Positions 32,902 through 62,024 of a stretch of DNA of 64,000 nt are shown piece by piece. The notes beneath the pieces were generated by a model. That model was not told the DNA's origin. It ran no database searches and saw only the letters and a program-made list of their open reading frames with translations. The DNA is from a virus, in the IMG/VR virus record IMGVR_UViG_3300030116_004255, positions 17,956 through 81,955 of that record, one strand, 5' to 3'. How positions within the stretch are numbered: position 1 is the stretch's first letter; the number at the start of each line of letters is the position of its first letter. The position numbers and the translations under genes are program-made.

Positions 32902-33048
32902 ATGGATTATTTAATAGGATTTATATTTGGATATTTTGTTAAAGAAACTTTTGCATTTCTGAAAAGATTAAGCGAATGGGACTGGCAAAATCGTTTGGTT
33001 TATGACCAAGATATATTTATGCCTCTTACTGAGGATGATTTACCCTAA
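32902..33048 (+). CDS. 48-residue membrane protein
   Basis: The ATG at 32902 lies five bases after a TATGGT -10 box, giving a nearly leaderless mRNA. The protein starts MDYLIGFIFGYFVKETFAFL, one transmembrane segment with a Gly zipper, then a charged tail (KRLSEWDWQNR...). Short single-span proteins like this are frequent in phages. A holin, antiholin or superinfection role would be speculation. The stop overlaps the 3' end of the convergent methyltransferase gene by nine bases. The SOS-like box suggests damage control. Confidence 0.6.
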   Translation: MDYLIGFIFGYFVKETFAFLKRLSEWDWQNRLVYDQDIFMPLTEDDLP

Positions 33049-34491
33049 AACCTCTTGATCAAACACAAGTGTGTCTTGTATCAAAGATCTAATAACTAAT
33101 CGACCTGTTAATTCTGCAAAATGTGGTACAACTGCATTTCCGAGAGCTTTAAGTCTATCAATATCGTTTTCTTGTCTTTCTGCAACTCTTAGTATGTTAT
33201 TTTCCCATTGACTATCTACACCCCAAGAATTTGTCATTCCAAGTTCAGCCAACCATCTGGGTAGCCCATAAGTCTGTTCACCCAAGCTGGGTTCAGTCGC
33301 ATACCAATCAATTCTGGATTCCGTTCCCCAACATCCATCTCCAGCGTAGAGCCGTGTGATCCACTCGCCACTGAGGGAGCTTTCTTGTTTACTGGCTTGC
33401 TGGCCTGACTGGCTCTGGGTGTCGAAAATGTCTCCTTTTCCACCCACTCTATCACTTCTATTGTCGTCAGTTCTTTCTCGAACTTTATTTCGTTCAAGTG
33501 TGGTTTGATCTTGCTCCAGTCCTCCAGACTCGGATAACTGAATCCGCTCTGATCGTAGCGATACCAATGATCCACTGTCGTTTTCTTTATCTTGGTCAGC
33601 TTTGCTAACTTGGTCGCCCCTATCTGACTTCTTATGTAGTCCACCCAGTCCTTCTGTGGTGGTAGAAGTGGTCGATTGATCATCTCGTGATCCTGATAAT
33701 AAACCATTAGGCTCGGATCTTTCTCTATCATATCCATCCAAACTTGATCGCTCAATGTTCTCTGTATCCTGTGGCCTGACGATCTCCTGGTTTTCCCCTG
33801 CATTAGTTTCGTCGCGTGTTTCAAGCTGTCGTCTTTCTGATCCATTGTCGTTGGTGTTAACCAAATCTTTGGGTTCTCTCGTAAGTTCCCAGTACCTTTT
33901 CTTTTGCTCTTCCTCTCTGGATCTCCACGATACAACGCTCTCTCCAAAGCGTCCCCTGATCTCGGTTCTAAGTGATCCAAAGTGTTCGGTGTCTCCCACG
34001 ATTCCAACTCCCACCCATCTTTGTCTTTTGTGTCTTGCTCCAACGAATTTTGCTGATACAAGTTGCCATTCAAATCGATAGTACCGCATTTTGGCCACAC
34101 CTTTGAGGACACGGTTAATGGCTTCTCCGTCACTTGCTCTGAGGATGTTTGGTACATTTTCCAAGAGGAAGATTGGTGGTCGTAGCTCATCAATAAATCT
34201 TTCGACTTCATCCCATAACCATCTTTCATCTTTTACTCCTTTCTGGTTTCCTGCAACACTTACAGGCTGACATGGAAATCCAGCACTTAATATATCTATT
34301 TTAGGTAGATATTTTGTATTTATCTCTTCTACGCTTTTATTTAAAACTAAACTATTAGGAAAATTTTGTTGTAAAACCTTTGTACAAAATTCGTCATTGT
34401 CTATCTGCCAAGCTACATCTGAAACCAGGCCTGATCTAATAAGGCCTAACTCTATACCGCCGATACCAGCAAACATACTTCCTAACTTCAT
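33040..34491 (-). CDS. dcm: C5-cytosine DNA methyltransferase
   Basis: This 483-residue protein carries the C5 motifs in order: I (LGSMFAGIGGIELG), IV with catalytic Cys (AGFPCQPVS), VI (FLLENVPN), VIII (GARHKRQRWVGVGIVGDTE), and at the C-terminus IX/X (DRLKALGNAVVPHFAEL). The ~240 residues between VIII and IX are hydrophilic, rich in Ser/Glu/Arg/Gln, and would act as target recognition region. Most of the gene, including motif VI and this region, is also an open frame for a second protein (33234-34229). It transfers methyl groups from AdoMet to cytosine C5. The ATG overlaps the upstream methyltransferase stop by four bases. Confidence 0.92.
   Translation of the reverse strand: MKLGSMFAGIGGIELGLIRSGLVSDVAWQIDNDEFCTKVLQQNFPNSLVLNKSVEEINTKYLPKIDILSAGFPCQPVSVAGNQKGVKDERWLWDEVERFIDELRPPIFLLENVPNILRASDGEAINRVLKGVAKMRYYRFEWQLVSAKFVGARHKRQRWVGVGIVGDTEHFGSLRTEIRGRFGESVVSWRSREEEQKKRYWELTREPKDLVNTNDNGSERRQLETRDETNAGENQEIVRPQDTENIERSSLDGYDRERSEPNGLLSGSRDDQSTTSTTTEGLGGLHKKSDRGDQVSKADQDKENDSGSLVSLRSERIQLSESGGLEQDQTTLERNKVRERTDDNRSDRVGGKGDIFDTQSQSGQQASKQESSLSGEWITRLYAGDGCWGTESRIDWYATEPSLGEQTYGLPRWLAELGMTNSWGVDSQWENNILRVAERQENDIDRLKALGNAVVPHFAELTGRLVIRSLIQDTLVFDQEVLG
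33234..34229 (-). CDS. Overlapping-frame protein within dcm (methyltransferase-associated family)
   Basis: A 331-residue frame, +1 relative to dcm and wholly inside it, does not look like a random shadow. It reads SSSWKMYQTSSEQ, VWPKCGTIDLNGNLYQQ, WETPNTLDHLEPRSGDALERALYRG, a helix-turn-helix-like IGATKLAKLTKIKKTTVDHW and ends MRLNPAWVNRLMGYPDGWLNL. This order (SWKxxQxS, WPKxG, TPxxxD, LNPxWVxxLMGxPxGW) is a pattern I recall from phage proteins annotated as cytosine-methylase related. Both frames therefore seem to be under coding selection. A separate start (ATG 34229) or frameshifting are both possible. Confidence 0.6.
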   Translation of the reverse strand: MKDGYGMKSKDLLMSYDHQSSSWKMYQTSSEQVTEKPLTVSSKVWPKCGTIDLNGNLYQQNSLEQDTKDKDGWELESWETPNTLDHLEPRSGDALERALYRGDPERKSKRKGTGNLRENPKIWLTPTTMDQKDDSLKHATKLMQGKTRRSSGHRIQRTLSDQVWMDMIEKDPSLMVYYQDHEMINRPLLPPQKDWVDYIRSQIGATKLAKLTKIKKTTVDHWYRYDQSGFSYPSLEDWSKIKPHLNEIKFEKELTTIEVIEWVEKETFSTPRASQASKPVNKKAPSVASGSHGSTLEMDVGERNPELIGMRLNPAWVNRLMGYPDGWLNLE

Positions 34492-60320: not shown

Positions 60321-60962
60321 ATGAAAATAGAGTATTTAAAACTACACGAAATATTACCTGCTGACATAAACCCAAAGGATCACGACATTGGCGATATTTA
60401 TATGTCAATGAAAAGATTTGGGTTTACTGAACCACCAGTAAAAAACGAAAAGACTGGAAAATTAGTTGCTGGTCACGGTAGGTTGGAAACATTAAAAATA
60501 TTAGAGGCAGAGGACATAACTACGCCACCACATAACATTAAGTTAGACAGTGACGGTAATTGGTTAGTTCCTGTCATTGCAGGAATAGAATTTGAAACTG
60601 ACGCTGAAGCAGAGGCTTACTTAGTAGCCTCGAATCAACTAACTATCAAAGGTGGTTGGAAAACTAGCGAATTAACAGATCTATTAGAAAGAGTTGTAGT
60701 TGATACAGAGGATCTATCTGGAACTGGCTTTGATCTTGACGATATTGACAATTTGATAAACACAATGGAATCAAAAGTCTTTGAGGACGAGGACATTGCA
60801 GAAGTAGAGGACGAAACAACAGTTAGATTTAAATTAGGTCGTTATAAGTTCGGTATTGATGCTGATCACTTCTACGACTGGGAAGAAAAAAGAAATAAAG
60901 ATCTAGGATCAAACAGTCCACAGGACTTGATCGCTTGGATAAAAGAAAGACTAGAACTTTAA
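60321..60962 (+). CDS. ParB/Srx-domain protein linked to methyltransferases
   Basis: This 213-residue protein opens with a ParB-type N-terminal domain: LHEILPADINPKDHDIGDIYMSMKRFGFTEPPVKNEKTGKLVAGHGRLETLKIL. GHGR is the nucleotide/catalytic loop; VPVIAGIEF and AYLVASNQLTIKGGW follow. Single ParB domains beside or fused to DNA methyltransferases are common in phages, where they may read or modulate methylation. Here three methyltransferases follow after a structured RNA region. The acidic C-terminus is variable. Confidence 0.78.
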   Translation: MKIEYLKLHEILPADINPKDHDIGDIYMSMKRFGFTEPPVKNEKTGKLVAGHGRLETLKILEAEDITTPPHNIKLDSDGNWLVPVIAGIEFETDAEAEAYLVASNQLTIKGGWKTSELTDLLERVVVDTEDLSGTGFDLDDIDNLINTMESKVFEDEDIAEVEDETTVRFKLGRYKFGIDADHFYDWEEKRNKDLGSNSPQDLIAWIKERLEL

Positions 60963-61039
60963 GGGGCAGTGTTGGTAAAGTCGTGTTTAGGTATCCAGTT
61001 CCTAGACACGAAACAGGGGTTCGAATCCCCTCTGCTCCA
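60963..61039 (+). tRNA. tRNA-like unit without D-stem (loop contains CCA)
   Basis: Acceptor-like stem GGGGCAG (60963-60969) pairs with CTGCTCC (61032-61038) followed by A. The T-arm is canonical: AGGGG-TTCGAAT-CCCCT. The middle arm is a 10-bp helix (CGTGTTTAGG with CCTAGACACG) closing a nine-base loop TATCCAGTT. The D region has TTGGTAAA but no stem. It is therefore tRNA-sized (77 nt) but not a normal tRNA; the long middle helix and stemless D region resemble the tRNA-like domain of tmRNA. CCA is not encoded. A decayed or specialised tRNA-Trp is the alternative. Confidence 0.6.
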
Positions 61040-61040
61040 C

Positions 61041-61114
61041 TAGGGTAAGACAATTATTATTTAAATAATGATGTTGTATGGGGATACAATTTAAGTATAA
61101 GCAATCTTACCCTA
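61041..61114 (+). ncRNA. Structured RNA unit 2 (74 nt)
   Basis: Closed by the perfect 10-bp helix TAGGGTAAGA / TCTTACCCTA. Inside are two hairpins: ATTATT(TA)AATAAT and TTGTAT-GGGG-ATACAA. It begins two bases after the tRNA-like unit. Followed by T5. No open frame or known RNA family recognised. Confidence 0.6.
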
Positions 61115-61117
61115 AGT

Positions 61118-61194
61118 TTTTACAGAGTAAATAGATCAAGTAAAGGGCTTGATCGTAAGCAAGCTAGCTTATATAAATATCTACCTCTGTAAAA
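61118..61194 (+). ncRNA. Structured RNA unit 3 (77 nt)
   Basis: Closed by TTTTACAGAG / CTCTGTAAAA (10 bp, perfect). Inside are GATCAAG-taaaggg-CTTGATC and TAAGC-aagcta-GCTTA. Same size and layout as the flanking units: long outer helix, two inner hairpins. Confidence 0.6.
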
Positions 61195-61275
61195 GGTTGG
61201 GAGATGTCCACAATTATGACACAACTAGTTGTAAATTTAAGAGGATACTGGGGAATAAGATATTCCCCACCAACC
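61195..61275 (+). ncRNA. Structured RNA unit 4 (81 nt)
   Basis: Abuts unit 3 without spacer. Closed by GGTTGG / CCAACC. Inside are ACAACTAGTTGT and the 9-bp hairpin TGGGGAATA-aga-TATTCCCCA; TGTCC (61205) can also pair with GGATA (61243). T6 follows at 61278, a possible terminator. The methyltransferase ATG lies only 11 bases beyond, so units 2-4 could also be its 5' regulatory leader. Confidence 0.6.
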
Positions 61276-61286
61276 AATTTTTTATT

Positions 61287-62024
61287 ATGATCTTTAACAA
61301 AAATTGTTTTGATGTTTTAGGAAAGATTCCAGACGAAAGTATCCAACTGATCTATTCAGATCTACCTTACAATGAAACTGGTAATAAGTGGGACAAGAGT
61401 GTTATTGATCTTGATCAACTCTTTGATCAATACCTTAGAATCTTAAAACCAGACGGAACTATCGCTTTGAACTCAACAATGAGGTTCGCAAACAAATTGA
61501 TCAATACTGCACCAGACTTTTATAAATACGAGTGGGTTTGGGAAAAAGACAATGGAACAAATTTTATTAGCAGTAAGTATCAACCTTTAAGAGTTCACGA
61601 GTTCGTGTTGATCTTTACAAAAGCAAGAGTGACTTATGGTAAGACTTTAGGCGTTAAATACAATCCACAAATGACAGTTGGTAAACCCTACAAACAGATC
61701 TCTGGTAAAAGTAGTGAGAACTGGAAAGGAAAGCCACTAAAAAATGTTGAAACAGATAATAAAGGAACTAGACACCCAAGAACAGTAAAGTTTTTCAAGA
61801 GAGATACGCCAAAGATCCACCCAACACAAAAACCTTTGAAACTTGCAGAGCTGATAGTCAACAGCTACACTGATAAAGGCGACATAGTGTTGGACAGTTT
61901 TATGGGATCTGGAACAACAGGTGTTGCTTGCAAACTTAATAAAAGAAAGTTTGTCGGTATTGAACTAAATGTGGATTATTTTAAAAAGGCGAAAGAGAGG
62001 CTAAATGATATACCTAAGAAATGA
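61287..62024 (+). CDS. DNA methyltransferase (DLPY type), right cluster 1
   Basis: The ATG at 61287 gives MIFNKNCFDVLGKIPDESIQ; an upstream in-frame extension would run through the structured RNA and is rejected. This 245-residue protein has motif IV LIYSDLPYNETGNKWD, KIHPTQKPLKLAELIVNSYT and motif I VLDSFMGSGTTGVACKLNKRKFVGIEL. Beta-group N4/N6 layout. No ribosome site is visible before the ATG, so its translation may depend on the RNA structure upstream. It overlaps the next gene by 20 bases. Confidence 0.87.
   Translation: MIFNKNCFDVLGKIPDESIQLIYSDLPYNETGNKWDKSVIDLDQLFDQYLRILKPDGTIALNSTMRFANKLINTAPDFYKYEWVWEKDNGTNFISSKYQPLRVHEFVLIFTKARVTYGKTLGVKYNPQMTVGKPYKQISGKSSENWKGKPLKNVETDNKGTRHPRTVKFFKRDTPKIHPTQKPLKLAELIVNSYTDKGDIVLDSFMGSGTTGVACKLNKRKFVGIELNVDYFKKAKERLNDIPKK

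Follow-up and report, generated by a model that had tools for sequence, protein, structure and literature searches.

A tRNA-like domain of tmRNA without its mRNA-like domain

A 64,000-nucleotide stretch of DNA from a marine phage (positions 17,956 to 81,955 of IMG/VR record IMGVR_UViG_3300030116_004255; hereafter the window) encodes a 77-nt RNA that is the tRNA-like domain (TLD) of transfer-messenger RNA (tmRNA), devoid of the entire mRNA-like domain. It is the first of four consecutive structured units on the plus strand (60963–61275), which begin directly at the stop codon of a ParB-like gene. A phage-encoded tmRNA TLD without an mRNA-like domain corresponds to the 'TLD only' tmRNA described for mycobacteriophage DS6A (Mao et al. 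2009, as cited in PMC4131195 and PMC11915505), and unit 1 is of this type. Within the open-access literature, DS6A is the one phage from which a tag-less tmRNA was previously known, although other reports may exist. It is the sole close precedent for an RNA that contains little beyond the TLD; compared by its description rather than its sequence, it differs in being a single phage and in having no array.

The acceptor stem of unit 1 (60963–60969/61032–61038, GGGGCAG/CTGCTCC) keeps the G3-U70 pair, an alanine identity element, and is followed by a discriminator A at 61039. The D-region (60970–60980) is stem-less, an 11-bp helix with a 9-nt loop (60981–60991/61001–61011) occupies the site where tmRNA has P2, and the T-arm (61015–61031) is canonical. 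A search with RF00023, the Rfam model of standard tmRNA, under an E-value threshold aligned 60963–61042 over the entire length of the model, skipping 303 of its positions (32.7 bits, E 1.4e-11), and a whole-record search gave 41.2 bits; at Rfam's own cut-off there was no match anywhere in the array stretch. These features and the full-model alignment are shared with standard tmRNA. Unit 1 differs from it in size (~77 versus ~360 nt), in the lack of a phage SmpB and in having neither the tag reading frame nor the pseudoknots of the mRNA-like domain, the 9-nt loop capping P2. Because the full-model alignments to RF00023 span only ~80 nt, the mRNA-like domain is absent. A canonical tRNA was rejected as the identity of unit 1: the D-stem is absent, a 9-nt loop sits on an 11-bp helix, and ARAGORN found neither a tRNA nor a tmRNA in the array. 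The first-pass annotation, made from the letters of the window alone, had described unit 1 as having a genuine T-arm and looking tRNA-derived. The T-arm stands, but its origin is the TLD of tmRNA and not a decayed tRNA.

Related forms are known from phages and organelles. Full phage tmRNAs, one-piece or permuted, were found by ARAGORN in 402 of 18,146 phage genomes (PMC9004378); they are likewise phage ribosome-rescue RNA genes, but keep the mRNA-like domain. Tag-less tmRNAs of organelles (jakobid mitochondria, and ~65-bp plastid forms; PMC11915505) are likewise reduced to the TLD. Unlike unit 1, they are organelle genes that belong to endogenous rescue rather than to a viral add-on, and the mitochondrial ones co-occur with nucleus-encoded SmpB.

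TLD-only RNAs in other phages

A pattern search of viral contigs for tmRNA-like ends with a short middle matched at least 119 stretches of 68–87 nt. The matches listed comprise TLD-like RNAs of ~74–87 nt and, in lower number, minimal tRNA-Ala-like genes of 68–71 nt. Most of the TLD-like RNAs resemble tmRNA in having the D-loop UGGnUUCGAC and a GAC that precedes the T-arm. Some matches of 68–71 nt were rejected as TLDs, being instead such minimal genes with a CUUGCAA loop. Those of 70–71 nt in contigs L009, L016, L061, L069 and L112 carry CUUGCAA as the anticodon loop, have G3-U70 and lack a proper D-stem.

P2 is maintained by compensatory change. Among the matches listed, 60% of 70 unique sequences of 74–83 nt, taken without a helix filter, form a P2 of 7 bp or more, compared to 1.2% of shuffles. 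In 27 non-redundant sequences picked by the D-loop pattern alone, not by pairing, and with arms in a fixed register, pairing in P2 reaches 91.5%, against 52% in shuffles. The covariation score of this set is 1.038 versus 0.250, a level that none of 500 shuffles attained; the signal vanishes when the register is slid. P2 is 7–8 bp long and covarying in the relatives, and 11 bp long in the window. Pairing of the acceptor and T-arm was not used as covariation evidence because the search pattern partly fixed those positions. G3-U70 and the discriminator A are present in all canonical members examined, which the pattern partly enforced; they are also present in L121, L123 and L124, which were found via the ParB-like protein, its methyltransferase or unit 4.

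We assembled 50 records, consisting of 47 viral contigs, two named phages and the window's own record. RF00023 matched in 49 of these, above the cut-off in 37, with matches at the TLD of about 77–84 nt that cover model positions 1–374. L123 is among those above the cut-off (50.5 bits), and L124, L140 and L121 likewise align with the mRNA-like domain skipped. Control phages with real tmRNAs (Cellulophaga phi38:1, Mycobacterium SlimJimmy, Pseudomonas SM1, Xanthomonas Rb1, Chryseobacterium MA9V-3 and the crAss-like cr10_1) gave RF00023 matches of 225–412 nt. No full-length tmRNA was found beside the TLD in the 50 records. SmpB was found in 0 of the 50 and in 10 of 14 control genomes; the absence is a tendency and not proof because many of the 50 records are fragments. 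The named phages infect Streptomyces: Shaeky (L126, MT701595 42932–43010; 59.3 bits) and Alone3 (L128; 36.8 bits) each carry an unannotated TLD-only tmRNA inside a phage tRNA cluster, and both have hosts that are laboratory strains. Among the controls, phi38:1 (L173), SM1 (L174), Rb1 (L177) and SlimJimmy (L175) have complete one-piece or permuted tmRNAs with strong Rfam matches that are unannotated in their records.

These data suggest that tag-less tmRNA is common and varied in phages. They also suggest that it largely escapes ARAGORN, which misses the short form in the loci studied here, and that where Rfam reports it, it is easily taken for an ordinary tmRNA; individual members may already bear the label 'tmRNA' in Infernal-based annotation, with the missing domain overlooked. 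Outside arrays, TLD-only RNAs are mostly solitary, without units 2–4 and often without tRNAs nearby. In L018, a DNA methylase 38% identical to that of the window lies 241 nt after a TLD-only RNA, and units 2–4 are absent there.

Many phages integrate into ssrA, and Mycobacterium phage Shandong1 carries a 3'-end-only copy beside its integrase. A TLD could in principle be such a leftover of host tmRNA from an integration site, either an attP or a decaying pseudogene. This explanation is largely refuted, and we give it very little credence: P2 is held by covariation, both acceptor strands are present and the TLD is complete. The window's record contains no integrase, and integrases occur in 4 of 41 TLD records, none adjoining the TLD. 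Moreover, a slightly tighter pattern matched only four times in 84,980 bacterial and archaeal genomes, and a check of these four matches did not show them to be viral.

Four consecutive structured units

Unit 1 (60963–61039, 77 nt; fold z −4.55) is followed by three further modules. Unit 2 (61041–61114, 74 nt; z −3.84) is closed by a 10-bp helix, TAGGGTAAGA/TCTTACCCTA. Unit 3 (61118–61194, 77 nt; z −5.64) has a 10-bp closing helix, an inner hairpin GATCAAG/CTTGATC and a conserved AAGCTAGCTT. Unit 4 (61195–61275, 81 nt; z −3.67) consists of a closing helix, a core helix and a 3' hairpin, with the conserved core CAACTAGTTGTAAATTTAAGAGG. The z-scores mean that each unit is more stable than nearly all its dinucleotide shuffles. 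Re-read from the sequence and folds, the coordinates and sizes (77/74/77/81) and the spacers of 1, 3 and 0 nt are as the first-pass annotation had claimed, and so are the closing helices of 7, 10, 10 and 6 bp, that of unit 1 including one G-U pair. Its count of two inner hairpins holds only roughly across the units. Unit 1 contains a P2 hairpin and a T-arm, unit 4 has a long-range helix and a hairpin, and unit 2 has alternative inner folds.

The minimum-energy fold of 60963–61275 (313 nt) consists of exactly four consecutive exterior domains. None of 400 dinucleotide shuffles, and none of 790 other window tiles from both strands, had at least three domains of 65–95 nt closed by at least 6 bp, which bears out the earlier contention that the tiling exceeds chance by the shuffle test proposed with it. 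The 323-nt array stretch folds at −105.9 kcal/mol compared to −71.4 ± 4.9 kcal/mol for shuffles (z −7.06), and none of the 400 shuffles or 790 tiles reached the stability of the array. The T6 run reported after the array lies at 61278–61283, 3' of unit 4. It is possibly a weak terminator or attenuator and is not conserved as such: no plus-strand terminator was called at this position, and no T6 run occurs at the equivalent place in L123, L180 or L181.

Units 2–4 are covarying modules of no known family

Alignment of the whole of unit 2 with MAFFT was too gapped for pair counts; helices were therefore counted on arms of units 2–4 after manual placement in register, guided by conserved flanks. 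This placement somewhat favours the percentage paired and has less effect on the covariation counts and slide controls. The closing helix of unit 2 is 100% paired in 11 arrays, with a covariation of 0.829 versus 0.178 in shuffles (0 of 500); in L180, even its GGG is changed (TAGAACGAAG/CTTTGTTCTA). Unit 3, available as three sequences (window, L124 and L181), has four pairs altered on both sides. In unit 4, compared across six arrays, three helices with 17 pairs are 100% paired, 11 of the pairs are altered on both sides, and the covariation is 0.792 versus 0.281 in shuffles (0 of 500). The compensatory changes that the first-pass annotation had named as support are thus found in the homologs of units 2, 3 and 4. 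Its description of these units as tRNA-like fares less well: they are real covarying modules, but tRNA-likeness is not established. No Rfam family, riboswitches included, gave a credible match to units 2–4.

We conclude that units 2–4 constitute a modular structured RNA in its own right, which accompanies the TLD 3' of the ParB-like gene. Such an RNA, kept by compensatory change yet matching no established family, is a novel element that calls for explanation. Displaced tmRNA pseudoknots were considered for unit 2, in which several arrays contain ACUAAAUGUAGUG: this stretch is reminiscent of a conserved 3' stretch of tmRNA, but the covariance model gives no support, and the idea stands as no more than a lead. 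A short coding sequence in unit 4 (window frame ATGTCCACA...) was rejected, as L124 has no ATG there and the core is conserved at the nucleotide level. Units 3 and 4 contain palindromes with a CTAG core (AAGCTAGCTT and ACAACTAGTTGT) that are kept in relatives; they might mediate kissing or dimer contacts, or serve the adjacent ParB-like protein as DNA sites.

The array is tied to the ParB-like gene, not to a methyltransferase

The ParB-like gene (60321–60962, plus strand; phrog_620, 1.2e-28) directly abuts the array with its stop codon, and the array follows such a gene in six of six close relatives when the window is included. In the other five, L121, L123, L124, L180 and L181, the TLD is likewise directly 3' of the stop codon. 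The ParB-like protein is 69–75% identical in L121, L124 and L123, and the array is not present in the more distant ParB relatives L183, L184 and L188. The TLD and unit 4 are constant in the six ParB-linked arrays, while units 2 and 3 are gained or lost as whole units. The window and L124 have TLD-U2-U3-U4, whereas L121, L123 and L180 have TLD-U2-U4, and L181, which lacks unit 2, has TLD-U3-U4.

In the window, 11 bases lie between the end of the array and the first of three methyltransferase genes, a DNA N6/N4 methyltransferase (61287–62024, plus strand; PF01555, 1.2e-36) whose ATG is at 61287. The first-pass annotation had entertained a composite cis-regulatory leader, for example an AdoMet-sensing one, for these genes. 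L181 has a different methyltransferase downstream of its array, and L123 has another after a short open reading frame (ORF). However, the methyltransferase is not a conserved neighbour: the array of L121 follows the ParB-like gene with no methyltransferase after it, the methyltransferase homologue lying elsewhere on the contig and not beside the array in L121/L122, and L124 and L180 have other genes 3' of the array (a different small protein and another protein, respectively). The Infernal/Rfam check suggested alongside the leader returned the tmRNA match of unit 1 below the cut-off, but no riboswitch family, and no SAM riboswitch matched the window stretch even at E up to 10. As the genes downstream of the array differ among relatives, the leader fails as a general explanation, and we regard it as highly improbable.

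A second, more distant group of arrays

The unit 2 motif ATACTRAATGTAGTG...AGTAWAAG matched in 24 viral contigs (L140–L166). Most of these belong to one set of phages, and where the arrangement was observed, a terminase-like gene lies ~2.2–2.5 kb downstream of the array; we presume the terminase-like identity and a marine origin of this group from protein sequence and resemblance rather than from a family search. Its arrays contain a unit 2 whose core is the same, along with additional closed modules and a hairpin at the end. Their ends are U4-like (GAGAGGGUAU.../AUACCCUC, CGACGA/UCGUCG and a GGCUCUC/GAGAGCC hairpin), and they form a large unclassified structured RNA. No such array was found in the named-phage collection. 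An apparent homologue in a Staphylococcus phage was rejected, since it shares only a promoter-like TTGACA/TATACT stretch after the array. In Staphylococcus phage vB_Sau_Clo6, ~1.1 kb without annotated genes lies between a small ORF and tRNA-Asp (L168 1873–2982), with no Rfam family in that stretch besides the tRNA.

A canonical TLD precedes unit 2 in L140, L141, L157 and L166. Others in the group have an acceptor/T-arm-like element with a different acceptor, such as GCCUGUG/CACAGGC in L152. Such minihelices would suit a TLD that serves as a processing mark for RNase P and the tRNA 3' enzymes, whose cuts would free functional units 2–4 from the ParB-like mRNA. In every ParB-linked array, moreover, hardly any spacer separates the TLD from the ParB stop codon on one side and the following unit on the other. 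For such a role, however, the P2 helix and the tmRNA D-loop would be superfluous, and the solitary state of most TLD-only RNAs elsewhere also argues against it. We consider this explanation unlikely.

A proposed decoy for SmpB and stalled ribosomes

With moderate confidence, we propose that unit 1 is a phage tag-less tmRNA acting as a decoy for SmpB and stalled ribosomes that damps host trans-translation. The proposal builds on the anatomy, tmRNA homology, covariation, wide phage occurrence and absence of phage SmpB described above. Unit 1 would most likely be excised in a tRNA-like manner from the ParB-operon transcript, gain a CCA end and be charged with alanine through G3-U70. It would then bind host SmpB (and EF-Tu) and compete with host tmRNA for SmpB and stalled ribosomes, and trans-translation and ssrA tagging would be reduced during infection. 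Inhibition is suggested by analogy with a published molecule similar to the DS6A TLD, which strongly inhibits tmRNA in E. coli whether chargeable or not, perhaps by titrating SmpB (PMC4131195; PMC11915505). Unfinished phage proteins might thereby be spared, toxin-linked defences blunted or SmpB-dependent steps freed. On the most parsimonious view, such a decoy is provided by many phages. As tag-less tmRNA appears to be widespread in phages, inhibition or hijacking of trans-translation becomes a general, testable phage strategy. The array of tRNA-like decoys envisaged in the first-pass annotation is thus supported only for the tmRNA-derived unit 1.

Alternatively, the TLD-only RNA could rescue ribosomes without tagging: an Ala-TLD–SmpB complex would enter the stalled ribosome, take the nascent chain and then release it, and unfinished phage proteins would escape the proteolysis mark. 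The retention of G3-U70 and the discriminator A in all canonical members is in line with this, as is the conservation in jakobid mitochondria of tag-less tmRNAs that are thought still to help (PMC11915505). Without a reading frame, however, there is no stop codon for the ribosome to end on, and the similar molecule inhibited tmRNA irrespective of charging (PMC4131195). Rescue of this kind therefore appears improbable.

Several observations weigh against the decoy. Unit 1 scores below the RF00023 gathering cut-off (32.7 or 41.2 versus 47 bits), and the D-loop in the window lacks the UUCGAC part of the tmRNA D-loop. In L121 and L140/141, the D-loop GG is lost and the T-loop reads UGCA. The array TLDs that have the GG (window, L123, L124, L157, L180 and L181) have the T-loop UUCG, and in this small sample the co-variation fits a kept D-loop/T-loop contact, as judged from the sequences. 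The distant arrays with an acceptor/T-arm-like element lack G3-U70, so that alanine charging may not matter there. Finally, the decoy account leaves the contribution of units 2–4 unexplained. These units may anchor, protect or target the TLD, or may be a trailing noncoding RNA freed when the TLD is cut out. A more tentative idea is that the TLD and units 2–4 work as a single machine. This modular phage RNA, a few hundred nucleotides long, would dock by its tRNA-like head on stalled ribosomes, SmpB or tRNA enzymes, and its exchangeable structured modules would have an effector function. If true, viral noncoding RNAs would gain a new class, present in at least two groups of phages that are mostly uncultivated.

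Apart from the array, a C5-cytosine methylase is encoded on the minus strand of the window (33040–34491). Its PHROG alignment covers 463 residues against ~256 profile positions, which suggests a ~200-residue insertion, and an overlapping 331-aa ORF lies inside the gene.
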